Below, piece after piece: positions 1 through 61,778 of a stretch of DNA of 64,000 nucleotides (position 1 is the stretch's first letter; each line of letters opens with the position of its first letter). Position numbers and translations under genes: made by a program. Source of the stretch: Modestobacter sp. VKM Ac-2984 (lineage in GTDB: Bacteria; Actinomycetota; Actinomycetes; Mycobacteriales; Geodermatophilaceae); assembly GCF_026967985.1 (NCBI RefSeq), contig NZ_JAPVBJ010000007.1:186001-250000 (forward strand). Reading direction: 5' to 3'. A model generated the notes under the pieces. It saw only the letters and a list, made by a program, of their open reading frames with translations, was not told where the DNA came from and ran no database searches.

Positions 1-238
1 CGGCGAGCACCGGGCGGCGACCCACGTGGTCCGACAGCGCCCCGACCACCAGCAGCGACACCAGCAGGGCGAAGGCGTAGACGCCGAAGACGACGGTGAT
101 CAGCCCGGAGCCGAAGCCGAACTCCTCCGCGTAGACCCGGTACAGCGGTGAGGGCACCCCGGACGCGGCGAGCATCAGCGTCAGCAGCACCGCCACCGAC
201 CAGAAGGCGGCGGGGCGGGCGAGCTCACGGCGCGGCAC
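1..238 (-). CDS. MFS transporter, N-terminal part only (runs off the window)
   Basis: Translating the minus strand from the left edge gives the start of a major facilitator protein. An N-terminal hydrophobic helix is followed by a periplasmic stretch (SGVPSPLYRVYAEEFGF), a second helix and the conserved loop 2-3 signature GALSDHVGRRPV (MFS motif A). About 79 codons are in the window and the rest lies beyond position 1. I chose the GTG at 238. A TTG at 250 is in the same frame and is an alternative, and neither has a convincing ribosome binding site. The gene follows the lipoprotein gene by about 40 bases on the same strand and may be cotranscribed with the cob operon. The substrate cannot be told from this fragment. 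Confidence 0.72.
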   Translation of the reverse strand, partial: MPRRELARPAAFWSVAVLLTLMLAASGVPSPLYRVYAEEFGFGSGLITVVFGVYAFALLVSLLVVGALSDHVGRRPVLA

Positions 239-279
239 GAACCGGTGCAAGCCGCAACGAGCCGGTCGTGTTCCCACCG

Positions 280-681
280 TCACGCGGTGAGCCGGCCGTC
301 CGAGGTCGCCGTGAGCACAGGCAGCACGGTCCACTCGCCGCAGCCGGGCCCGTTCGGCCGGGTCACCTCGGTGTCGACCGGTGCACTGGCCGACCACAGC
401 CTGGTGCCGGCCGGGTCGCGCAGTGTCAGGGAGACCTGCACCGTCTCGACGTCCGGGATCTCCCGTTCCCACCAGACGCCCTGGGACGAGCGCGGGTCCG
501 CGCCGACCTCCACGCCGGTGCACTCGTCGTCCAGGCAGACCTCCGCCGTCGTCCCGGCGGGCAGGTCCAGCGCGCTGGTGTCGACGGCGACGACGGTGAG
601 CGCCGCCATCTCGGTGCACCCCTGCGGCTGGCCGGCGCAGCCGGCGAGCGCCGCCACCAGGAGCATGAGGACGGCGCGCAT
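280..681 (-). CDS. Putative secreted lipoprotein of unknown function
   Basis: The 133-residue protein starts with a short lipoprotein signal peptide: MRA, a hydrophobic core and the lipobox LAGC, with Cys15 as the predicted lipidated residue. The rest is a small beta-rich domain with Cys pairs and no motif I recognise. Its ATG lies only 4 bases after the cobIJ stop, so it is probably translated from the same message as cobG-cobH-cobIJ. A role in B12 metabolism is not implied by its sequence. It is presumably anchored on the outer face of the cell membrane. Confidence 0.7.
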   Translation of the reverse strand: MRAVLMLLVAALAGCAGQPQGCTEMAALTVVAVDTSALDLPAGTTAEVCLDDECTGVEVGADPRSSQGVWWEREIPDVETVQVSLTLRDPAGTRLWSASAPVDTEVTRPNGPGCGEWTVLPVLTATSDGRLTA

Positions 682-685
682 CAGG

Positions 686-2218
686 TCAGCCGGGGTAGCG
701 GCGGGAGGTGAAGACCTGGCCGGACGGCGTCACCCGGGTCTGGGTGGAGCCGATCATCACCAGGCAGCGCATGTCGACCGTGTCGGGGTCGAACTCACCG
801 AGGGTGGTCACGGTGACCGACTCCTCAGGCCCGCCGACGTCCCGGCCGATGACGACGACCGTCGCGGGGTCCTTCACGTCCAGCAGCACCTTGTGCGCCT
901 CGCCCAGCTGGTGCGGGCGCGCCTTGGAGCGCGGGTTGTAGAGCGCGAGCACCAGGTCGGCGGCGGCCGCGTGCCGCAGCCGGTCCAGCACGACGTCCCA
1001 CGGCTTGAGGACGTCGGACAGCGAGATGATCGCGAAGTCGTGCCCGAGCGGCGCCCCCACCCGGGAGGCCACCGCCTGCGCCGCCGTGAGCCCGGGCAGC
1101 ACCCGGACCTCGACGTCGGCGAACTCCGGCTGCGCGGCGACCTCGAGCACCGCGGCGGCCATCGCGAACACGCCGGGATCACCGCTGGAGACGACCGCGA
1201 CCCGCCGTCCGGACTGCGCCAGCCGCAGCGCCGCCGCGGCCCGCTCGGCCTCCACCCGGTTGTCGCTGGGGTGCCGGGTCTGCCGGGGGTTGACCTCCAC
1301 CCGGTCCAGGTAGGGGCCGTAGCCGACCAGGTCGTCGGCGCGGGCCAGCGCCTCGGCGGCCTCCGGCGTCGTCCAGCTGCGCTGCCCGGGGCCCAGGCCG
1401 ACGACCACGACGTCACCGCGCCGGGGTCCGTCGTCCTCGGCCCGTTCGGGGTGGTTGCCCGGCCCGGTGAGCTCGCTGGGCAGCAGGGCGAGGGAGAAGT
1501 ACGGGACGGTGGCCGGGTCGACGTCGGCGAGCGGCTCGACCCGCTGCCGGTCGGTGGTGGCCCGCTCCACGTACCAGGCGCGGTCGAGCACCCCGGCGGC
1601 GTCGAACGCCTCCCGGACTCCTGTGAAGGTGCGGCCCAGCTTCAGCACCGCAGCGGAGTCGGTGGTCGACAGCCACTCGGCGAGCTCGTCGGCGGGCAGC
1701 GTGCCGGGCAGCACGGTGAGCACCTCGTCCCGCTCGACCAGCGGCCGGCCGAGCACCGCGGCGGCGCCGCTGACGCTGGTGACGCCCGGGACGACCTCGG
1801 TGGGGTACCGGTGGGCCAGCCGCTTGTGCATGTGCATGTACGAGCCGTAGAAGAACGGGTCGCCCTCGGCGAGGACGACGACGTCCCGGCCGGCGTCCAG
1901 GTGCGCGGCCAGGCGGGCGGCGGCGGCCTCGTAGAACTCGTCGATCGCCCCCTGGTAACCGCCGGGGTGGTCGGTGGTCTCGGTGGTGACCGGGTAGACC
2001 AGCAGCTCCTCGACCTGGCCCTCGCGCAGGTACGGCGCGGCCAGCCCGCGGGCGACCGAGCGGCCGTGCTGGGCGGCGTGGAAGGCGACGACGTCCGCGG
2101 CGCCGATCAGCCGGGCGGCCTTGACCGTCACCAGCTCCGGATCGCCCGGCCCCAGCCCGACCCCGTACAGCCGCCCTGTCCCCGCCGAAGGGCCAAAATC
2201 GCGACTTTGGCCCCTCAT
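686..2218 (-). CDS. cobIJ: Fused precorrin-2 C20-methyltransferase / precorrin-3B C17-methyltransferase
   Basis: This is a bifunctional 510-residue SAM-dependent methylase of the oxygen-dependent cobalamin pathway. The CobI half (about residues 15-245) opens with GRLYGVGLGPGDPELVTVKA and carries the AEGDPFFYGSYMHMHKRL segment. The CobJ half (about 268-500) starts VVVVGLGPGQRSWTTPEA and contains SSGDPGVFAMA and LALYNPRSKAR. CobI methylates C20 of precorrin-2; CobJ methylates C17 of precorrin-3B with ring contraction. The fusion is common in actinobacteria. The ATG overlaps the cobH stop (ATGA). Oddly, the first 11 codons, including two bases of the start codon, come from a palindromic repeat (2185-2217), so the N-terminus MRGQSRDFGPS is foreign to the family. 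The catalytic parts look intact. Confidence 0.95.
   Translation of the reverse strand: MRGQSRDFGPSAGTGRLYGVGLGPGDPELVTVKAARLIGAADVVAFHAAQHGRSVARGLAAPYLREGQVEELLVYPVTTETTDHPGGYQGAIDEFYEAAAARLAAHLDAGRDVVVLAEGDPFFYGSYMHMHKRLAHRYPTEVVPGVTSVSGAAAVLGRPLVERDEVLTVLPGTLPADELAEWLSTTDSAAVLKLGRTFTGVREAFDAAGVLDRAWYVERATTDRQRVEPLADVDPATVPYFSLALLPSELTGPGNHPERAEDDGPRRGDVVVVGLGPGQRSWTTPEAAEALARADDLVGYGPYLDRVEVNPRQTRHPSDNRVEAERAAAALRLAQSGRRVAVVSSGDPGVFAMAAAVLEVAAQPEFADVEVRVLPGLTAAQAVASRVGAPLGHDFAIISLSDVLKPWDVVLDRLRHAAAADLVLALYNPRSKARPHQLGEAHKVLLDVKDPATVVVIGRDVGGPEESVTVTTLGEFDPDTVDMRCLVMIGSTQTRVTPSGQVFTSRRYPG
2185..2217 (-). repeat. Palindromic element, copy 1, at the cobH/cobIJ junction
   Basis: This 33-bp element has a 24-bp inverted-repeat core (2190-2213) centred on TCGCGA with one mismatch (position 2198). 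It matches copy 2 at 3311-3343 in 32 of 33 bases, and the flanks differ completely. Read along the minus strand it begins TGAGGGGCC and ends CCCTTCGG. Its first three bases are the cobH stop codon, and with the preceding A they form the cobIJ ATG. It is open in all six frames. Here it encodes the N-terminal peptide RGQSRDFGPS of CobIJ. Confidence 0.9.
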
Positions 2219-2835
2219 TCGGCGGTGCTCGCCATCGCGTTGACCGCGGCGGCGGTGATGGCGCTGCCGCCGCGCCGGCCGCGGACGGCGAGGAACTCCA
2301 GGTCGGCGGCGGCCAGCGCCTCCTTGGACTCCACCGCCCCGATGAAGCCCACCGGGATGCCGATGACGGCGGCCGGCCGCGGGGCCCCGTCACGGATCAT
2401 CTCCAGCAGGTGGAACAGCGCGGTGGGGGCGTTGCCGATCGCGACGACGGCGCCGTCCAGCCGGTCACCCCACAGGTGCATCGCCGCGGCGGTGCGGGTG
2501 GTGCCCATCTCCCGGGCCAGGTCGGGGGTGCGCGGGTCGTTGAGGGTGCAGACGACCTCGTTGAACGCCGGCAGCCGTTTGCGGGTCACCCCGGAGGCGA
2601 CCATCTGGGAGTCGCACAGCACCGGGGCGCCGGACTCCAGCGCCTTGCGGCCGGCCCGGACGACGTCGGGGGAGAAGGCCACGTCGGCCGCCAGGTCGAC
2701 CTGACCGCAGGCGTGGATCATCCGGACGGCGACCTGGGCGACGTCCTCGGGCAGCCCGGACAGGTCGGCCTCGGCGCGGATCATGGCGAAGGACTGCCGG
2801 TAGATCTCGGCGCCGTCGTGCTCGTAGGAGTACAT
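2215..2835 (-). CDS. cobH: Precorrin-8X methylmutase
   Basis: CobH moves the C11 methyl group of precorrin-8X to C12, giving hydrogenobyrinate in the aerobic corrin pathway. The 206-residue protein begins MYSYEHDGAEIYRQSF and contains the active-site segment RMIHACGQVD with the catalytic histidine. It also has the family stretches LCDSQMVASGV, GNAPTALFHLLEMI and IGIPVGFIGAVESKE. Length and sequence are normal. The ATG overlaps the cobG stop by one base, and the TGA overlaps the cobIJ start. The stop codon lies in the palindromic element (2185-2217), so the last residues (STAE) may be shorter than in the ancestral gene. Confidence 0.95.
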   Translation of the reverse strand: MYSYEHDGAEIYRQSFAMIRAEADLSGLPEDVAQVAVRMIHACGQVDLAADVAFSPDVVRAGRKALESGAPVLCDSQMVASGVTRKRLPAFNEVVCTLNDPRTPDLAREMGTTRTAAAMHLWGDRLDGAVVAIGNAPTALFHLLEMIRDGAPRPAAVIGIPVGFIGAVESKEALAAADLEFLAVRGRRGGSAITAAAVNAMASTAE

Positions 2836-4028
2836 CAGTCCTCTTCGATCCGGAGTTCGTAGCCGGACGGCGTCGCGACGACGTCGACGACCCCGCCCTG
2901 CGGTCGGCCGCAGCGGCGTTCGCAGCCGGCCCAGTGCTGTCGGGCGCCGCCGGCGGGCAGCGTCCGGGTGGAGACGGCGGTGACGGCGTCGGCGCGGACG
3001 TCGGCCAGCGACTTGGCGCAGCCCGGGCGGCCGGCGCAGGTGGTCACCTGCAGCCAGGGGCTCGCCTCGTCGAAGACCATGCCGGTGCGGAACAGGTCGA
3101 CGGCGGCGTCGTCCACGGCGTCCTCGGCCAGGTCGGGCACGACGACGCTGCGCCACGGGGTCAACTGCACGTCGGCGGCGAGCCGGGCGAGGAGATCGGC
3201 CTGGTCGGCGGTCAGCCGGCCCAACGGGACGACGCCGATGAGCGCCGTCCGGCCGTCGAGCTGCGTCGCCGCCCCGACCGGCCCCACCACCGGCGCCCCC
3301 GGCACCTCGACCGAAGGGCCAAAGTCGCGACTTTGGCCCCTCAGGCGGGTGGCGACGCGGGTGGGGCCGTCGGCGAGCTCGGCCAGCCGCCAGGCGGTCG
3401 AGCCCTGGGCGGCGCGCTCGGCGAGGAAGGCGTGGGTGGCGTCCAGGGCCAGCGCGACCGCGTCGTCCGGGGCGCAGCGCAGGCCGGAGTCGACGCCGCC
3501 GAGCAGCAGGGCCACCGAGCCGGCGGAGAGCGCCAGCAGGCCGACGTCCCCGCCGAGACCGGCGACGTCGCCCCGCCCGTCGTCCAGGGTCAGCAGGAAA
3601 CGGCCGGGCAGCTCGGCCAGCGCCGGGTCGGCACGCAGCCCGGCGTCGAAGGCACCGACCCACGGCCGGGCGTCGACGTGCCCGCCCGGAGTGCGCCCGG
3701 ACAGGGTGCTGGCCAGCACGTTGCGCACCCGCTCGTGCGTGGCGCTGGGCAGCAGGCCGGCGGCGGCCAGCCGGTCGCCCAGCTCGGCCTCCGCACCGGC
3801 CGGCAACCCGCGCAGCTGCACGTTGCCCCGGCTGGTCAGCTCCAGGTGCCCGTTCCCGAGCTCCCGGGCCGCGGCCGCCAGCGCCTGCAGCTGCACCGCG
3901 CCGATCGCCCCGCCCGGCACCCGGACCCGGGCCAGCCCGCCGTCGGCGGCGGCGTGGGTCTGCAGCGCGCCGGGGCAGGCATCGGCGCGCTCGCGCTGAG
4001 CGGGGAGGGAGGTCCCGGGGAAAGACAT
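2835..4028 (-). CDS. cobG: Precorrin-3B synthase (CobG), with a palindromic-element insert
   Basis: CobG is the iron-sulfur mono-oxygenase of the oxygen-dependent B12 pathway and makes precorrin-3B from precorrin-3A. The 397-residue protein belongs to the nitrite/sulfite reductase-like family. It has two ferredoxin-like halves, a LTSRGNVQLRG motif near residue 65 and the 4Fe-4S ligands CAGRPGCAKS and CERRCG near the C-terminus. It is the first gene of the cobG-cobH-cobIJ operon. Around residues 229-240, in the linker between the two halves, sits RGQSRDFGPS, encoded by the second copy of the palindromic element, in the same frame as in CobIJ. The insert avoids both cluster-binding and substrate motifs, so the enzyme is probably functional. 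I see no riboswitch in the 57 bases upstream. Confidence 0.93.
   Translation of the reverse strand: MSFPGTSLPAQRERADACPGALQTHAAADGGLARVRVPGGAIGAVQLQALAAAARELGNGHLELTSRGNVQLRGLPAGAEAELGDRLAAAGLLPSATHERVRNVLASTLSGRTPGGHVDARPWVGAFDAGLRADPALAELPGRFLLTLDDGRGDVAGLGGDVGLLALSAGSVALLLGGVDSGLRCAPDDAVALALDATHAFLAERAAQGSTAWRLAELADGPTRVATRLRGQSRDFGPSVEVPGAPVVGPVGAATQLDGRTALIGVVPLGRLTADQADLLARLAADVQLTPWRSVVVPDLAEDAVDDAAVDLFRTGMVFDEASPWLQVTTCAGRPGCAKSLADVRADAVTAVSTRTLPAGGARQHWAGCERRCGRPQGGVVDVVATPSGYELRIEED
3311..3343 (-). repeat. Palindromic element, copy 2, inside cobG
   Basis: The core 3316-3339 is a perfect 24-bp palindrome (GGGCCAAAGTCG followed by its reverse complement). With its flanks the conserved unit is 33 bp, 32 of which match copy 1. 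It lies in the coding sequence of cobG and adds RGQSRDFGPS in the interdomain linker, in the same orientation and frame as in cobIJ. Its A/T-rich centre stands out from the local GC content. Confidence 0.92.
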
Positions 4029-4085
4029 GGCGCCCGCGAGGCTACTTCCCGCCGCACCCTGGGCAGTCGAGCCCGCCCCTCCCGG

Positions 4086-4799
4086 TCAGGTCAGCGACGT
4101 CCGGTCGAAGGACATCCAGACCCGCCGCCGGTCGGCCCGGGTGCGCACCTTCGCCATCGCGTCCACCCGGCGCTGCTGCTCGGCGGTGGCGCGGTGCTCG
4201 ACGACGGCGAGCTCGGCCTCCCGCATGTCGTGCTCGGCCGCCGCCTCCGCCGGGGTCTGCGGCAGCTGCGGGTCGAGGTCCTCGGGGGAGACCTCCGGGC
4301 CGGGGTCCTCCTTGTACGGGCTGTCGTCCGGCAGGTTGCCGCTGACCCGGCCGTAGGCGCCCAGCGTCAGCAGCACCAGGCCGGCGCCGATGGAGAAGAT
4401 GACGTTGGCCATCGAGAACGCCAGCAGGTTGAACTCGCTCTCCAGCACCGCGAGGTTGGCCAGCGCCGAGATCAGGAACAGGATGCCGATCAGCAGCATC
4501 GTGTTCGACGCGGCGCGGGGCCCGAGGAACGCGGTGACCACCAGCACCAGCGCGGTGACCACCGAGATCGTGGAGAGCAGGCCGTTGGAGGACAGGCCGG
4601 CCACCTCGCCGCCGTCGGTGGAGAAGTAGGCCAGCCCGTCGGCGAAGCCGAGCAGGCCGAAGGTGAGCAGGATCAGGCCCACGACCACCGCGCCGACGCG
4701 CTGCACGGTGTAGACCACCGACCCGCCACCCTCGTCGGTCTGGTTCGCATCGTCCGAACGGTTCGGCCGACGGTGTCGCAGGTTCTCGCGCACGCTCAT
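4086..4799 (-). CDS. DUF4383 family membrane protein
   Basis: The 237-residue integral membrane protein has a short polar N-terminus and then four transmembrane segments, for example VGAVVVGLILLTFGLLGFA, LLSTISVVTALVLVVTAFLG, NTMLLIGILFLISALANLAV and MANVIFSIGAGLVLLTLGAYG. This matches DUF4383. A charged, cytoplasmic tail of about 80 residues follows, rich in Glu, Gln and Arg. The ATG at 4799 is preceded by CGGAGGCAACCC, a good ribosome binding site. DUF4383 proteins have no established function. It is divergent from the TPR gene and may share its control region (4800-4932). Confidence 0.82.
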   Translation of the reverse strand: MSVRENLRHRRPNRSDDANQTDEGGGSVVYTVQRVGAVVVGLILLTFGLLGFADGLAYFSTDGGEVAGLSSNGLLSTISVVTALVLVVTAFLGPRAASNTMLLIGILFLISALANLAVLESEFNLLAFSMANVIFSIGAGLVLLTLGAYGRVSGNLPDDSPYKEDPGPEVSPEDLDPQLPQTPAEAAAEHDMREAELAVVEHRATAEQQRRVDAMAKVRTRADRRRVWMSFDRTSLT

Positions 4800-4932
4800 G
4801 GGTTGCCTCCGTCGTGTGGATGACCAGACACGGGGGCTTCGTCGATGACGGCTCGGACGGATGCGCCGTGTGCACGACACGCCGGGAAGAGCCGTGCGGA
4901 CGGCGCTGTTACGGGCCGGTGGAAGGAGCGTC

Positions 4933-5262
4933 ATGAACCAGCCGTACGAGATCGACCTGCACTCGGAGTACCTGCGCGCGGACCTCTTCTTCGCGATGGG
5001 GCAGCCCGCGGAGGCCGCCCGTGTCCTGGACGGGGTGCTCGCCGCCGAGCCGGACAACCAGGCCGCGCTGGAGCTGCTGGCCCGCAGCTACTTCGGTTCG
5101 GCCCAGCTGAGCCGCGCCGAGGAGGCGCTGGCCCGGCTGGTGGAGCTGGCCCCGGCCAACGGGTGGGCCCGCCGCGCACTGGCCCGCACGCTCGAGCGGC
5201 AGAACCGCGGGGCGGACGCCGCCGTCCACCACCGCGTCGCCGACGCCCTCGGCGCCGCGTGA
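4933..5262 (+). CDS. Small tetratricopeptide-repeat protein
   Basis: The 109-residue cytoplasmic protein is made almost entirely of TPR helices: LHSEYLRADLFFAMGQPAEAARVL, then AEPDNQAALELLARSYF and ELAPANGWARRALARTLERQ. About three repeats form a protein-binding surface. I chose the ATG at 4933 because GGAAGGAG stands just upstream. In-frame starts further upstream add a sequence with no TPR character. Such proteins usually act as adaptors and the partner is unknown. It converges on the AGCS symporter gene with a strong hairpin between them. Confidence 0.85.
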   Translation: MNQPYEIDLHSEYLRADLFFAMGQPAEAARVLDGVLAAEPDNQAALELLARSYFGSAQLSRAEEALARLVELAPANGWARRALARTLERQNRGADAAVHHRVADALGAA

Positions 5263-5285
5263 CCGACGTTCGCTGAGCTCGTCGT

Positions 5286-5320
5286 CCGGCGGGTGCTCGG
5301 AGTCCGGGAGCACCCGCCGG
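5286..5320. terminator. Bidirectional terminator hairpin
   Basis: A perfect 13-bp stem, CCGGCGGGTGCTC (5286-5298) with its complement at 5308-5320, and a 9-base loop lie between the convergent TPR and AGCS genes. No T-run follows on either side, as is usual in this GC-rich group. Confidence 0.8.
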
Positions 5321-5329
5321 AGCGACAGG

Positions 5330-6922
5330 TCAGCGGTCCTCGACCGAGGGCGGCGGGTTCGGGGTGGTGCCGTCGACGCCCGTGGTGGCGGCGGTGCTGC
5401 CGCCCGTCGGGGAGGGCGTGATGCCCCGCTCGGCGACCGGCAGCAGCGCCCCGTGGGCCAACCGCTCGCGGTAGCCGAAGAGCTCCCGCTTCACCACCCG
5501 GCTCAGGATGTAGAGCCCGATGATGTTCGGCAGCGACATCAGGAAGATCATGCTGTCGGAGAAGCCGATCACCGCGTCGAGGGTCGAGGAGGCCCCGATG
5601 ACCACGAAGATGCAGAAGATCAGCTTCCAGGTCCGGTCCACCACCATCGACTCGCCGAACAGGTAGGTCGACGCCTTCAACCCGTAGTAGCTCCAGGCCA
5701 GCATCGTGGAGTAGGCGAACAGGATCACCGCGACCGCCAGCACGATCGGGAACCAGTCCGCCACCGTCTCGAAGGCGGCGGAGGTCGTCTCCACGCCCGG
5801 GGCACTGGCCTCGTCCGCCCAGGTGCCGGTGATCACGATGGCCAGCGCGGTCATCGTGCAGATGACGACGGTGTCGATGAAGGGCTCGAGGACGGCGACG
5901 TGGCCCTCGGTCGCCGGCTCGTTCGTCTTCACCGCGGAGTGGGCGATCGCGGCCGACCCCAGCCCGGCCTCGTTGCTGAAGGCCGCCCGCCGGAAGCCCT
6001 GGATGAGCACGCCGACGACGCCGCCGAACCCGGCCTCGGGGCTGAACGCCGTCCGGAGGATCTCCCAGAGGGCATCGGGGATCTCGGTGAAGTTGGCGAA
6101 CAGCACGGAGAGGCAGGCGATGACGTAGAAGACGGCCATGAACGGGACGAGCTTGTCGGTGACGCGGGCGATGCTCCGGATCCCGCCGATGATCACCGCA
6201 CCGACCAGGATCGCGAGCACCAGGCCGAAGACGGCACCGGCCGCCCCGAACCCGAGCCAGCCGTCCTCGCCGCCGGTCACCGACTGGGCCTGGGCGAAGG
6301 CCTGGTTGGCCTGGAACATGTTCCCGCCGCCGACGGCGCCGCCCAGGGTGAAGATGCAGAACAGGACCGCGAGGACCTTGCCCAGCGTGCCCTTGCCCTT
6401 CTCCTTCAGCCCCTGGCTCAGGTAGTACATGGGCCCACCGGAGACCCGGCCGTCGTCGTAGACCCTGCGGTACTTGACGCCGAGGGTGCACTCGACGCCC
6501 TTGGTGCACATGCCGACGAGGCCGGCGATGATCATCCAGAACGTCGCCCCCGGTCCGCCGAGGGAGATGGCCACCGCGACCCCGGCGATGTTCCCGAGGC
6601 CCACCGTCCCGGAGACGGCGGTCGCCAGCGCCTGGAAGTGCGTCACCTCCCCGGCGTCGTTCGGGTCGTCGTACTTGCCCTTGATCAGCTGGATCGCGTG
6701 ACCGAAGGCCCGGAACTGGAAGCCCTTCAGGTAGACCGTGAAGAAGATCCCGGCCAGGACGAGCCAGACCACGATCAGCGGCAGCACGACGCCCTCGTCG
6801 ATGAAGTCCAGCGGGACGCTGTAGAAGACGATCCCGACGATGAAGTCCGAGATCGGCGCGAAGACGTCGTTGACCTGCTCGTCGAACGTGGCGGCCTGCG
6901 GGGAGGGGAGCGACGTGTTCAC
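5330..6922 (-). CDS. Sodium:alanine/glycine symporter, AGCS family
   Basis: The 530-residue transporter has about ten or more transmembrane helices. Family signatures include [19 protein letters not shown] near residue 105, the segment with [13 protein letters not shown], and [21 protein letters not shown]. These are hallmarks of the AlsT/AGCS family, which takes up alanine or glycine with sodium. The C-terminal tail is polar and rich in Thr, Gly and Pro. The start overlaps the stop of the universal stress protein gene by 4 bases (ATGA), so translation of the two is coupled. Substrate preference cannot be read from the sequence. Confidence 0.92.
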
Positions 6923-24632: not shown

Positions 24633-24648
24633 GCGCCGGCCGGCAGGT

Positions 24649-24705
24649 GGGGAGCCAGGAGGCTTGTGCTCTGCTCACCCCCAGTGAGCAGAGCACCAGC
24701 TCCCC
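24649..24705. terminator. Terminator hairpin after cobN
   Basis: A perfect 12-bp inner stem (GTGCTCTGCTCA at 24666-24677 with 24685-24696) has a 7-base loop. It is enclosed by a second stem, GGGGAGC (24649-24655) with GCTCCCC (24699-24705). It separates cobN from the BNR gene. Confidence 0.8.
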
Positions 24706-24766
24706 GAGGTACCACCCGGCGGCCCGACTCCGATGAGTTCCGCCGGGTCGCGGAGTCCTCTGCTGC

Positions 24767-51287: not shown

Positions 51288-53753
51288 GTGGGGGAGATCT
51301 CGTCGAGTCCGGGTCCGGAGCAGCCGGGGGTGCCTGAGGGCAGCCCCGAGGTGTCGCCCTCGGCGGCTGACGGCGGCGACGGGACGACGCCCGATCCGTC
51401 CGCCCTGGCCGACGCAGCGCCCGCCCCGCGCACCCCGGACGACCCCGCAGGTGTGGCCGCGGGATCCACGGGGCCGGTGGGGGAGCCGAGCGCGGAACCG
51501 GCCGAGCAGGAACACCAGGAGGCCACGGCCCCGGTCGAGCAGGCCGCCGAGCCGTCGGCGCCGGAGGGGGTCATCGAGGAGCCGCTCCCGGAGACGACCG
51601 GCGGGGCAGCCGAGGCGCGCCGCGCCGCCGCGGAGCAGGCAGCCGCCGACCTGGCTGCGGTGAAGAGGTGGGCGGCCGAGCGGGCTGCCGCCGAACGGGC
51701 AGCGGCCGAGGAGGCCGAGCGGGCTGCGGCCGCCCAGGCCGAGCTCGACGAGGCCGACGTCGAGCGTGCCCGGGCCGAGCAGGCTGCCGCCGACCTCGCC
51801 GCGGTCCGGGAGTGGGCGGCCCAGCAGGCCGCCGCGGCGCGGGCCGCCGAGGAACAGGCGGCCGCCGAACGGGCCGCGGCCGATCAGGCAGAGGCGGCCC
51901 GCGTCGAGGCCGAGCGCGCGGCGGTCGCGCGGGCGGAGGCCGACCGCGTGGCGACCGAGCAGGTCGAGGCGGACCGACTGGCGACAGAACGAGCGGCCGC
52001 GGACGAGGCCGACGGGCAGCGGGCCGCCGCCGCCGCGGCGATGGCCGCCGAGCGCGCAGCCATCGAGCAGGAGACGGCCGAGCGGGCCGCGACCGCGCGC
52101 GCCGCCGCCGAACGTGCCGCGGCCGAGGATGCCGAAGCCGAGCGCAGGGCGGTGGCCGAACGGACTGCGGCAGCCGAGCGCGCAGCAGCCGACCGCGCGG
52201 CAGCCGAACGCGCCGACCGGGCACGGGCGCAGGCCGAGCGGGTGGCGAGTCGCCAGGCGGTCGCGGAACACGCTGCCCCTGCCCCTGCCCCTGCCCCTGC
52301 CCCTGCCCCTGCCCCTGCCGCGGCGAGTGCGACCGCGGCCACCTCCGGCTCGCGGCGGGCGGGCTCCAGCACCGGGGGCGGCGGCCGGCGGACGAAGGTC
52401 CTGGTCGCCGCCGTCCTCGCCCTCGTCCTGGTCGCGGCCGGGGTGGTGCTGGCCCTGGACCTGACCGGCGGCGACTCCGCCGTGGCCGTGGACGCCGAGC
52501 AGGTGCCCGACGCCGTCCTGCCCGACCTCACGGAGCCCGGCCCGGTGCTCACCCCGCTCTCCGCCGAGGCGCCGGTGCCCGACCCGGCGGCGCTCGCGGC
52601 CGTGCTGAACCCGTTGCTCGCCTCCCCGGCGTTCGGCAGCGGCCTGTCCGCGCAGGTCGTCGACGTGGCCACCGGGCAGGTGCTCTTCGAGCAGGACGCG
52701 GCCGACCCCGGCACGCCGGCCTCCACCGCGAAGCTGCTCACCGCCCTCGCCGCGCTCACCACCCTGGAGCCCGCCGGCACCCTGACCACGACCGTGGTGG
52801 CCGGCAGCGCCCCGGGGGAGGTCGTCCTGGTCGGCGGGGGCGACCCGACCCTGTCGACGACCGCACCGTCGGTCGACTACCCGGGCGCGGCCACCGTCGC
52901 CGACCTGGCCGCCCAGGTCCAGCAGGCGCTCGGTGGTCAGCCGGTGACCAGCGTCGTCGTCGACAACTCGTTGTTCAGCGGCCCGCTCACCGCCCAGGGC
53001 TGGGGTGCTGATGACGCACCCTCGACCTACGCCGCCCCGGTGACCGCCACCGCCGTCGACGGCGCCCGGCAGGTCCCCGGCCGCACCCCCCGCAGTGGGT
53101 CGCCGGGCACCGACGCCGGTGCCGCCCTGGCCGCGGCGCTGGGCGCCCCGGACGCAGCCGTCAGTCTGGGTGCCGCACCGGCCGGCGCACGCACGCTGGG
53201 CAGCGTCGAGTCAGCGCCGGTCGCCCGGCTGGTCGAGCAGTCGCTCACCGCGTCGGACAACCTGCTGGCCGAGTCGCTGGCCCGGCACGTGGCCATCGCC
53301 CGGGGGCTGCCGGCCACCTTCGAGGGGGCCGCGCAGGCGATCGGTGCCGCGCTGACCGACGCCGGGCTGGACACCACCGGGCTGGCCCTGTCCGACGCCA
53401 GCGGCCTGTCCCGCGACGACCGGGTGCCCGCCCAGCTCCTGGTCGACGTCGTCCAGGTCGCCGCCGACGGCAGCGTCCCCGACGCCGACGTGCTGCTCTC
53501 CGGCCTCCCGGTCGCCGGGTACGACGGCACCCTGATCGACCGGGCCGCCGACGGCCCGGGCAGCCCCGGCGCGGTGCGGGCCAAGACCGGCACGCTGCTG
53601 GGCGTCAACGACCTGGCGGGCACGGTGCAGACCGCCGACGGCCGGCTGCTGGCCTTCGCCGTCCTGGCCGACGGCGCCACCGGGAGCCTGGAGGCGACCG
53701 AGACCGCGCTGGACGTCGTGGCGGCCGCGCTGGCCGGCTGCGGCTGCCGCTGA
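51288..53753 (+). CDS. dacB: D-alanyl-D-alanine carboxypeptidase (PBP4/DacB family) with a long Ala-rich N-terminal region
   Basis: The last 430 residues are a penicillin-binding protein of the S13 family, which trims or cleaves peptidoglycan peptides. It has ASTAKLL (Ser479, SxxK), ASDNLLAE (Ser656, SxN) and AKTGTLLG (Lys766, KTG). A transmembrane segment, VLVAAVLALVLVAAGVVLAL (about 371-392), anchors it with the enzyme outside. The unusual part is the cytoplasmic N-terminus: about 105 acidic, Pro-rich residues, then about 220 residues of AERAAAE-type heptads, probably a long coiled coil, and an (AP)n stretch from a hexanucleotide repeat. The GTG at 51288 is my choice; 51243 is also in frame. 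Confidence 0.88.
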   Translation: MGEISSSPGPEQPGVPEGSPEVSPSAADGGDGTTPDPSALADAAPAPRTPDDPAGVAAGSTGPVGEPSAEPAEQEHQEATAPVEQAAEPSAPEGVIEEPLPETTGGAAEARRAAAEQAAADLAAVKRWAAERAAAERAAAEEAERAAAAQAELDEADVERARAEQAAADLAAVREWAAQQAAAARAAEEQAAAERAAADQAEAARVEAERAAVARAEADRVATEQVEADRLATERAAADEADGQRAAAAAAMAAERAAIEQETAERAATARAAAERAAAEDAEAERRAVAERTAAAERAAADRAAAERADRARAQAERVASRQAVAEHAAPAPAPAPAPAPAPAAASATAATSGSRRAGSSTGGGGRRTKVLVAAVLALVLVAAGVVLALDLTGGDSAVAVDAEQVPDAVLPDLTEPGPVLTPLSAEAPVPDPAALAAVLNPLLASPAFGSGLSAQVVDVATGQVLFEQDAADPGTPASTAKLLTALAALTTLEPAGTLTTTVVAGSAPGEVVLVGGGDPTLSTTAPSVDYPGAATVADLAAQVQQALGGQPVTSVVVDNSLFSGPLTAQGWGADDAPSTYAAPVTATAVDGARQVPGRTPRSGSPGTDAGAALAAALGAPDAAVSLGAAPAGARTLGSVESAPVARLVEQSLTASDNLLAESLARHVAIARGLPATFEGAAQAIGAALTDAGLDTTGLALSDASGLSRDDRVPAQLLVDVVQVAADGSVPDADVLLSGLPVAGYDGTLIDRAADGPGSPGAVRAKTGTLLGVNDLAGTVQTADGRLLAFAVLADGATGSLEATETALDVVAAALAGCGCR
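52275..52316 (+). repeat. Hexanucleotide tandem repeat in dacB
   Basis: Seven exact copies of GCCCCT encode alternating Ala-Pro between the coiled-coil region and the membrane segment. The unit is six bases, so gain or loss changes linker length but not frame. Confidence 0.95.
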
Positions 53754-61734: not shown

Positions 61735-61778
61735 GGCGGTCCGGACGGGCGGGAGGTCTCCCGCCCGTCCGGACCGCC
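61735..61778. terminator. Strong bidirectional terminator
   Basis: A perfect 20-bp stem (61735-61754 with 61759-61778) has the 4-base loop GGTC. It begins at the base after the DUF3180 stop and ends 6 bases before the stop of the convergent substrate-binding protein gene. Confidence 0.9.

Follow-up and report, generated by a model that had tools for sequence, protein, structure and literature searches.

Dispersed palindromes of Modestobacter are retained at orthologous positions and exchanged in sequence type

Near relatives within Modestobacter keep the places of short, dispersed palindromes and exchange their sequence: the palindrome found at an orthologous position is mostly retained, and its sequence type is exchanged whole. 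This contrasts with the usual picture, in which bacterial palindromic repeats spread to new places and decay at old ones. The explanation that we favor, with slightly better than even confidence, is that these are REP-like palindromes at inherited addresses that turn over in place, the dominant type being copied over older palindromes. The genus offers a natural system for studying how 24-bp sequences become uniform genome-wide in the absence of the known REP enzyme.

Two family A units in the cobalamin genes

The window, i.e., the whole 64,000-nucleotide stretch of DNA that was analyzed, contains three cobalamin genes on the minus strand. These are cobIJ (686..2218), a precorrin-2 C20-/precorrin-3B C17-methyltransferase fusion matching PF00590 in two stretches, with TIGR01467 and TIGR01466 above cut-off; cobH (2215..2835), encoding precorrin-8X methylmutase (PF02570; NF006136 above cut-off); and cobG (2835..4028), encoding precorrin-3B synthase (PF03460; TIGR02435 at 242.7 bits versus a cut-off of 234.8). 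They harbor two 33-bp palindromic units of family A, also on the minus strand, namely copy 1 at 2185..2217 (core 2190-2213) and copy 2 at 3311..3343 (core 3316-3339). As stated in the original prediction, the units are near-identical on unrelated flanks (32 of 33 bases are equal, and the 15-base flanks agree at just 5/15 and 7/15 positions), and both encode RGQSRDFGPS on the minus strand. The account of copy 1 as forming the gene junction was also accurate: unit bases 1 to 3 are the cobH stop codon, two of these (TG) double as part of the cobIJ ATG, and the unit encodes the CobIJ N-terminus. Copy 2 lies in frame within cobG. The units had further been described as open in all six frames, which is true of the 24-bp core but not of the 33-bp unit, where TGA occurs in one of the six.

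A chance origin was rejected, as no matches of the units were found across 100 shuffled windows or in a reversed control. A known RNA family was rejected given the lack of any Rfam match at E≤1 in window positions 1-6000, and a phage origin given that the 22-bp core has no exact match among viral contigs. As single-stranded DNA, copy 1 folds at -11.6 kcal/mol (z of -2.6) and copy 2 at -14.6 kcal/mol (z of -3.9).

The CobG peptide corresponds approximately to residues 230-239 of 397, the unit center being 701 nt from the start. Since it lies beyond the better of the two NIR_SIR_ferr stretches (32-89) and within the TIGR02435 match (14-390), placement in an interdomain linker is plausible. At the cobH/cobIJ junction, the anticipated empty sites do exist, the ATGA overlap being uninterrupted in five Modestobacter genomes. 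The junction is both empty and filled among near relatives (G012 versus G009 and G020), with a 27-bp in-frame insert in G012 relative to G009. Palindrome types at both cob sites were assigned by eye across the genus.

Genomic distribution and palindrome families

The original prediction could have failed on an ancient RGQSRDFGPS peptide in distant genera or on a lack of further genomic copies. Neither was found: this Modestobacter genome contains 34 family A copies (24-bp palindrome, ≤3 mismatches), with 0 in the reversed control. After a pairing filter, 57 sites were retained for analysis (30 A, 24 B, and 3 D). Genes were predicted with our own codon-usage caller, for which starts are approximate. 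This caller placed 8 of the 57 sites inside ORFs, and three more read as N-terminal coding sequence (C12:78917, C15:403338, and cobIJ, whose start had been set too far in), giving 11/57 coding and 46/57 extragenic sites. Most copies are thus extragenic and lie shortly behind a stop codon: 28 of 36 co-directional sites are closer to the stop codon than to the next start. Another 11/57 lie between convergent genes and only 2/57 between divergent ones, and some copies occur within operons and genes.

At least four palindrome families (A to D) exist in Modestobacter, and their abundance is species-specific. Individual genomes harbor two to three families side by side, and several contain few palindromes or none. 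The units measure 24-30 bp and have a TCGCGA or TGGCCA core, constant outer arms, and variable positions 4-7. Center and outer arms were invariant across 238 sites; the apparent constancy of the center is inflated because these sites, mostly from loci fetched for A copies, were chosen for consensus closeness and pairing. When applied to 200 genomes of the order, a unified pattern matched 191, in most cases only a few times (0-15 outside the family versus 0-9 in the control), so that only high counts are meaningful.

Most copies are single. At the loci examined, same-type doublets include nine pairs spaced 52-54 bp apart and others at 31, 44, 45, and 50 bp, and mixed A/B pairs also occur side by side. 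In own sequence totaling 288 kb and selected around copies, 51 A half-sites were inside palindromes versus 1 single, and 43 versus 0 for B. Paired changes between A copies exceeded a simple expectation (9 versus 2.2 and 11 versus 2.8), although this excess is not counted as support, since the changes are concentrated at few positions.

Sequence type at orthologous positions

The orthologue table comprised 31 of the 34 A copies, leaving out C12:518947, C20:97409, and C12:329881. Of the 30 A sites located in the close relative G001, 17 have B or D and 8 have A, with an A unit persisting alongside at one of the 17 swapped sites; in G013, 6 of 29 carry B or D. According to the filter, a palindrome is present at the same place at 25/30 sites in G001 and 27/29 in G013, bearing in mind that the class "none" includes degenerate or displaced palindromes (C12:403190 and C19:159017 in G001) and that the unclassified G001 site C12:118942 looks like a degenerate A. 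The palindrome positions are common to three species, and flank identity at the A-site orthologues is 94.8% for G001 and 95.3% for G013.

In the 12 nt adjoining the palindrome, identity is 63-74% at swapped sites versus 75-87% at unswapped sites, with a random baseline of 51-54%. The exchanged tract comprises the palindrome and some additional bases. At 20-60 nt from the palindrome, swapped and unswapped sites are 83-90% and 85-90% identical, which does not favor a scenario in which other species donated whole alleles. An exact type exchange between identical flanks was found at C20:225304, and at one locus, beside genes that we take to be cobO and cobB, two units spaced 54 bp apart are of the same type in each of three species (A-A, B-B, or D-D). 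Small length changes frequently accompany the exchange, the intervals being 29-54 at swapped sites versus mostly 40-43. At C18:133140, both relatives have a B unit next to an A unit, indicating an addition there rather than a swap. Type swapping at fixed positions, the main feature of these palindromes, is invisible from one window alone.

Proposed in-place turnover and its alternatives

The swaps could alternatively reflect selection, or loss followed by new insertion at favored spots. A functional 3'-end site (a terminator, an mRNA stabilizer, or a protein-binding palindrome) held by selection and recoded when its partner specificity shifts would fit the placement just behind stop codons, the few divergent sites (2/57), the positions common to three species, the invariant center and outer arms, the fact that both window copies fold significantly as single strands, and the constant spacing (52-54 bp) between paired units of one type. 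We nonetheless regard it as unlikely, as turning A into D requires 8 coordinated changes out of 24, and turning A into B requires 10, at many sites whose flanks changed by 5%, and as two to three families occur together in a genome and several Modestobacter genomes have hardly any palindromes or none. Like intrinsic terminators, the palindromes form a strong stem immediately downstream of stop codons, including sites that separate convergent genes (11/57), but they lack a T-run (TTTT at 0/57 sites; five Ts in 10 nt at 1/57), their sequence is common across genes with an invariant center, and copies lie within operons and genes. G-U versus A-C mismatches on the mRNA strand have no clear bias (48:34 at co-directional sites, 13:18 inside genes) that would favor an mRNA hairpin under selection. 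That different mobile palindromes insert and excise repeatedly and independently at a small number of preferred targets, e.g., older hairpins behind genes, without replacement, seems quite improbable to us. It would account for the cobH/cobIJ junction being empty and filled among near relatives, for adjoining mixed A/B pairs, and for site-specific complementary bases outside the consensus, which exceed shuffled partners from position 13 onward (z of 4.8, 7.2, and 3.9 for A; 2.8, 3.2, 1.8, and 4.2 for B). However, recurrence of the palindrome at the same place at nearly all located sites (27/29 in G013, 25/30 in G001) would require near-saturated targets, and the REP-kind transposase (PF01797) was not found in 23 genomes.

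The likeness to Rickettsia palindromic elements that had been proposed stood in part: the Modestobacter units are palindromic and dispersed, with in-frame copies in unrelated genes, as in PMC10969869, and empty sites exist. In-frame insertion as the chief description was not supported by the census, in which 46/57 sites are extragenic. Rickettsia elements are approximately 150 bp long (PMC10969869) and would be expected mostly within ORFs, unlike units of about 24-30 bp with 11/57 sites coding. A fixed frame and peptide would also be expected of such elements, whereas the common frame suggested here is favored but not fixed, with 7 of 15 coding loci using only the GQSRDFGP/HQNGHFGG phase, 5 only another, and 3 mixed. 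A selfish in-frame element aiming mainly at genes, already disfavored by the genome census, is therefore highly improbable despite its in-frame copies in CobG, at the CobIJ N-terminus, and at several other N-termini. We likewise give almost no credence to a DNA uptake sequence that differs between species as dialects and forms inverted-repeat pairs at gene ends, for which PMC3630211 provides a precedent in Neisseriaceae, including species differences and copies in genes. The species-specific dialects, copies in genes, and symmetric units at gene ends would agree with it, but half-sites are not enriched as singles (1 versus 51 in palindromes for A, 0 versus 43 for B, in the 288 kb around copies), on which ground it was rejected, and there are just tens of copies per genome.

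The closest resemblance to the palindromes and their doublets is with REP/REPIN sequences, described in PMC3116915, PMC3686654, and PMC3733652 as palindromes of 20-40 bp, present in tens of copies, that are extragenic, fall into species-specific classes, form doublets at fixed spacing with a variable spacer (compare the nine Modestobacter pairs at 52-54 bp), and sometimes lie inside ORFs or supply stop codons. These sources also describe an "orthoswitch" to a new REP class, modeled as decay of old copies and spread of new ones (PMC3116915, PMC3686654, PMC3733652), whereas the Modestobacter type changes at the same address. Unlike REPs, the Modestobacter palindromes are fully symmetric and without the GTAG/CGTC tag (within 8 nt of either end, GTAG at 0/57 and CGTC at 3/57 sites). 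The cognate Y1 (RAYT) transposase gene was not found either: PF01797 matched 0 of 23 Modestobacter genomes, 5 of which are <90% complete, with the control positive in 5 of 14, and RAYT-driven spread was rejected on this basis.

In the favored explanation, the palindromes occupy inherited addresses that mostly follow stop codons directly, both in Modestobacter and, in other sequence versions, in some sister genera. The dominant palindrome of a genome would be copied into sites holding an older one, with some 24-48 bp being replaced. The likeliest routes would be ectopic template switching at the replication fork, in which a hairpin of single-stranded DNA is the intermediate, one arm being copied from another palindrome and the second templated by fold-back, or the action of a putative palindrome-specific nuclease or transposase. 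A further-reaching version, in which replacement is active without a known transposase and addresses are occasionally overwritten genome-wide by a new dominant palindrome via hairpin copying, so that species differ in dialect and not in location, is one that we hold tentatively and consider less likely than not.

In-frame copies arise at gene overlaps (cobH/cobIJ) or in linkers such as that of CobG, and under in-place turnover they would be by-products. A unit just behind the stop codon of a gene overlapping its neighbor (ATGA) would become the neighbor's N-terminus, and units in flexible linkers would be tolerated, surviving because the core is open in all frames and encodes in one of them a hydrophilic Gly/Ser/Pro-rich peptide. 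Caution is warranted in annotation, where RGQSRDFGPS in CobG and the extra CobIJ N-terminus are to be read as repeat-derived sequence rather than as functional motifs.

Copy number and families of the palindrome

The two 33-bp units in cobIJ and cobG (2185-2217 and 3311-3343, minus strand) were indeed alike at 32 of 33 bases with unrelated flanks, as originally noted, and no match to the unit arose in 100 shuffled windows. The identities of the two minus-strand host genes are supported by Pfam and NCBIfam. The claim that the element is open in all six frames holds for the 24-bp core, termed family A, and fails for the 33-bp unit, which carries a TGA in one of six frames. A complete-genome search for further copies, proposed at the outset, yielded 34 cores at ≤3 mismatches in this Modestobacter genome (G000; 21 contigs, 4.56 Mb), 15 of them matching the R/Y consensus exactly, and none in the reversed-sequence control. 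At ≤2 mismatches, at least one core was present in 13 of 23 Modestobacter genomes, with 22 to 40 copies in G000, G004, G013, G018, G019, and G021 and 0 to 5 in each of the other 17. Outside the genus, a single match turned up among 36 family or order genomes, and it has the other core. An exact scan of genome contigs returned 65 stretches (64 from Modestobacter and one from an uncultured Blastococcus MAG), and the 22-bp core was not found in viral contigs.

A palindrome scan of the compared loci revealed a second abundant core. Family B (CCACCAAAATGGCCATTTTGGTGG), searched via its 18-bp centre, has 22 copies in G000 and up to 45 within the genus, and differs from A at 10 bases. Family D (GGCAGAAATGGCCATTTCTGCC; 28 copies each in G001 and G008, 7 in G000) differs from A at 8 of 24 bases, as four symmetric pairs. 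Family C (GGCCATGTTGGCCAACATGGCC) is absent from G000 and reaches 73 copies in G016, 50 in G006, 40 in G005, 26 in G010, and 14 in G012. The G012 copies, on several contigs, include cores TTCGCCAA and TTCGCGAA besides TTGGCCAA, perhaps a family caught midway between two core types. A unified pattern gave 48 matches in G000 versus 1 in the control and 46 versus 0 in the sister-genus genome G030, which carries versions of its own (e.g., GCCAAGATGGCCATCTTGGC); across the order, most genomes gave background counts only.

Exchange of sequence type at shared positions

The cobH/cobIJ junction was compared in 21 genomes, with site types assigned by eye. Twelve carry family A (G000, G013, G018, G004, G019), B (G001, G008, G021), or C and C-like units (G006, G002, G016, G012); five have a plain ATGA overlap (G014, G011, G020, G009, G003), G010 and G017 have partial or unclassified units, and the pattern gave no reading for G007 and G005. 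The empty site sought in cobIJ orthologues was found, G012 differing from G009 by a 27-bp in-frame insertion. In the CobG linker, an A-, B-, C-like, or other palindrome occupies the same spot in 15 of 21 genomes, also typed by eye. No clean empty site was seen there, because linkers without a palindrome (G014, G007, G020, G012, G009, G017) are only about 9 nt shorter.

Anchors lying about 100 bp away from 29 A copies were located in G001 and G013 and the sites then read; adding the two cob sites brought the comparison to 31 of the 34 A copies. G013 carries A at 21, B at 5, D at 1, and none at 2, with 2 not found (flank identity, 95.3%); in G001, 8 sites are A, 9 are B, and 8 are D, 4 have none, 1 is unclassified, and 1 was not found (94.8%). 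At C18:133140 (contig:position in G000), an A unit adjoins a B unit in both genomes, so the strict G001 swap count is 16/30 rather than 17/30. The 12 nt adjoining swapped units are 63 to 74% identical versus 75 to 87% at unswapped ones (random, 51 to 54%), and identity at swapped sites recovers to 83 to 90% at 20 to 60 nt from the unit. The exchanged tract thus spans about 24 to 48 bp; at C20:225304 the exchange is base-exact on both sides. The comparison shows type exchange at fixed positions, while we can only infer its driver.

One gene boundary, presumably cobO-cobB, carries a doublet 54 bp apart that is A-A in G019, B-B in G021, and D-D in G000 (C19:157326-157380; compared as L053, L064, and L157), with spacers unrelated between species and constant in length. 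Among pairs in compared loci passing a strict filter, those 52 to 54 bp apart are all of one type (9/9) and those 30 to 35 bp apart are all mixed A/B (5/5); outside that filter, same-type pairs also occur at 31, 44, 45, and 50 bp. At C18:133140 (L059), where G000 has a single A unit, G013 and G001 (L236, L232) are about 600 to 700 bp longer beside the B+A pair, apparently through one additional gene without counterpart in G000, which we take to be DinB-like.

Position relative to genes

By a codon-usage gene caller with approximate starts, the 57 A, B, and D sites of G000 fall between co-directional genes (36), in convergent (11) or divergent (2) gaps, or inside ORFs (8). Within co-directional gaps, 28/36 units lie closer to the stop (median, 23 nt versus 52 nt to the next start), as do 11/14 in gaps of ≥100 nt. 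Sixteen sister-genus loci from four genomes have the unit centre 11 to 30 nt from the gene stop in nine and the unit within a called gene in four. In four cases the upstream stop lies just ahead of the unit. The unit is then taken to form the N-terminus of the downstream gene, at cobIJ, C12:78917 (MSTDQGQSRDFGPS), C15:403338 (MPEQGQSRDLGPS), and C4:68289 (MTDLQGRSRDFGPS), the first three being counted as co-directional among the 57 sites and the last not. The reading frame is favoured rather than fixed: among 15 coding loci, condensed from 40 in-ORF entries with some doubtful starts, seven show only the hydrophilic phase, five only another, and three vary between species.

DNA or RNA role and relation to known repeats

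Across 238 sites, the centre of the palindrome and positions 8 to 12 are almost always paired, and mismatches fall at positions 4 to 7. G-U and A-C mismatches on the mRNA strand are similar in number (48:34 co-directional, 13:18 inside genes), TTTT follows the palindrome at 0 of 57 sites, and A half-sites number 1 outside palindromes versus 51 inside. Pairing of the flanks past the consensus exceeds that of shuffled partners for a few bases, and single-strand folding is good for both window copies. Together these data favour a whole palindrome recognised or copied as DNA; a role as RNA is also possible.

The units belong to a REP-like population without the defining RAYT (the cognate Y1 transposase) and tetranucleotide tag (GTAG or CGTC), and in-place turnover of sequence type is the remarkable trait of this population. 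Titles and abstract openings of open-licence papers on Modestobacter or Geodermatophilaceae palindromes contain no report of the element, nor do those on in-frame palindromic elements, high-GC genome hairpins, or concerted evolution of palindromes; in the excerpt of PMC9686282, the palindrome matches are mentions of CRISPR. No paper on REP with RAYT in Actinobacteria was found in the open-licence literature.

Other repeats were also noticed. Sequence resembling CCACTCGCAGGCTCGYGGYGGGCCCCTGC, perhaps a repeat or terminator family in its own right, lies beside or near palindromes in L224 (G013; orthologue of C19:89464) and L232 (G001; orthologue of C18:133140). Within the window, 61735-61778 is a perfect, loopless 44-bp inverted repeat (arm, 22) unrelated to families A to D, and 24638-24724 has two 41-nt arms, 73% complementary and 5 nt apart. 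Degenerate 39-nt repeats in 15-nt steps at 51671-52207 probably reflect coding sequence rich in alanine and glutamate.
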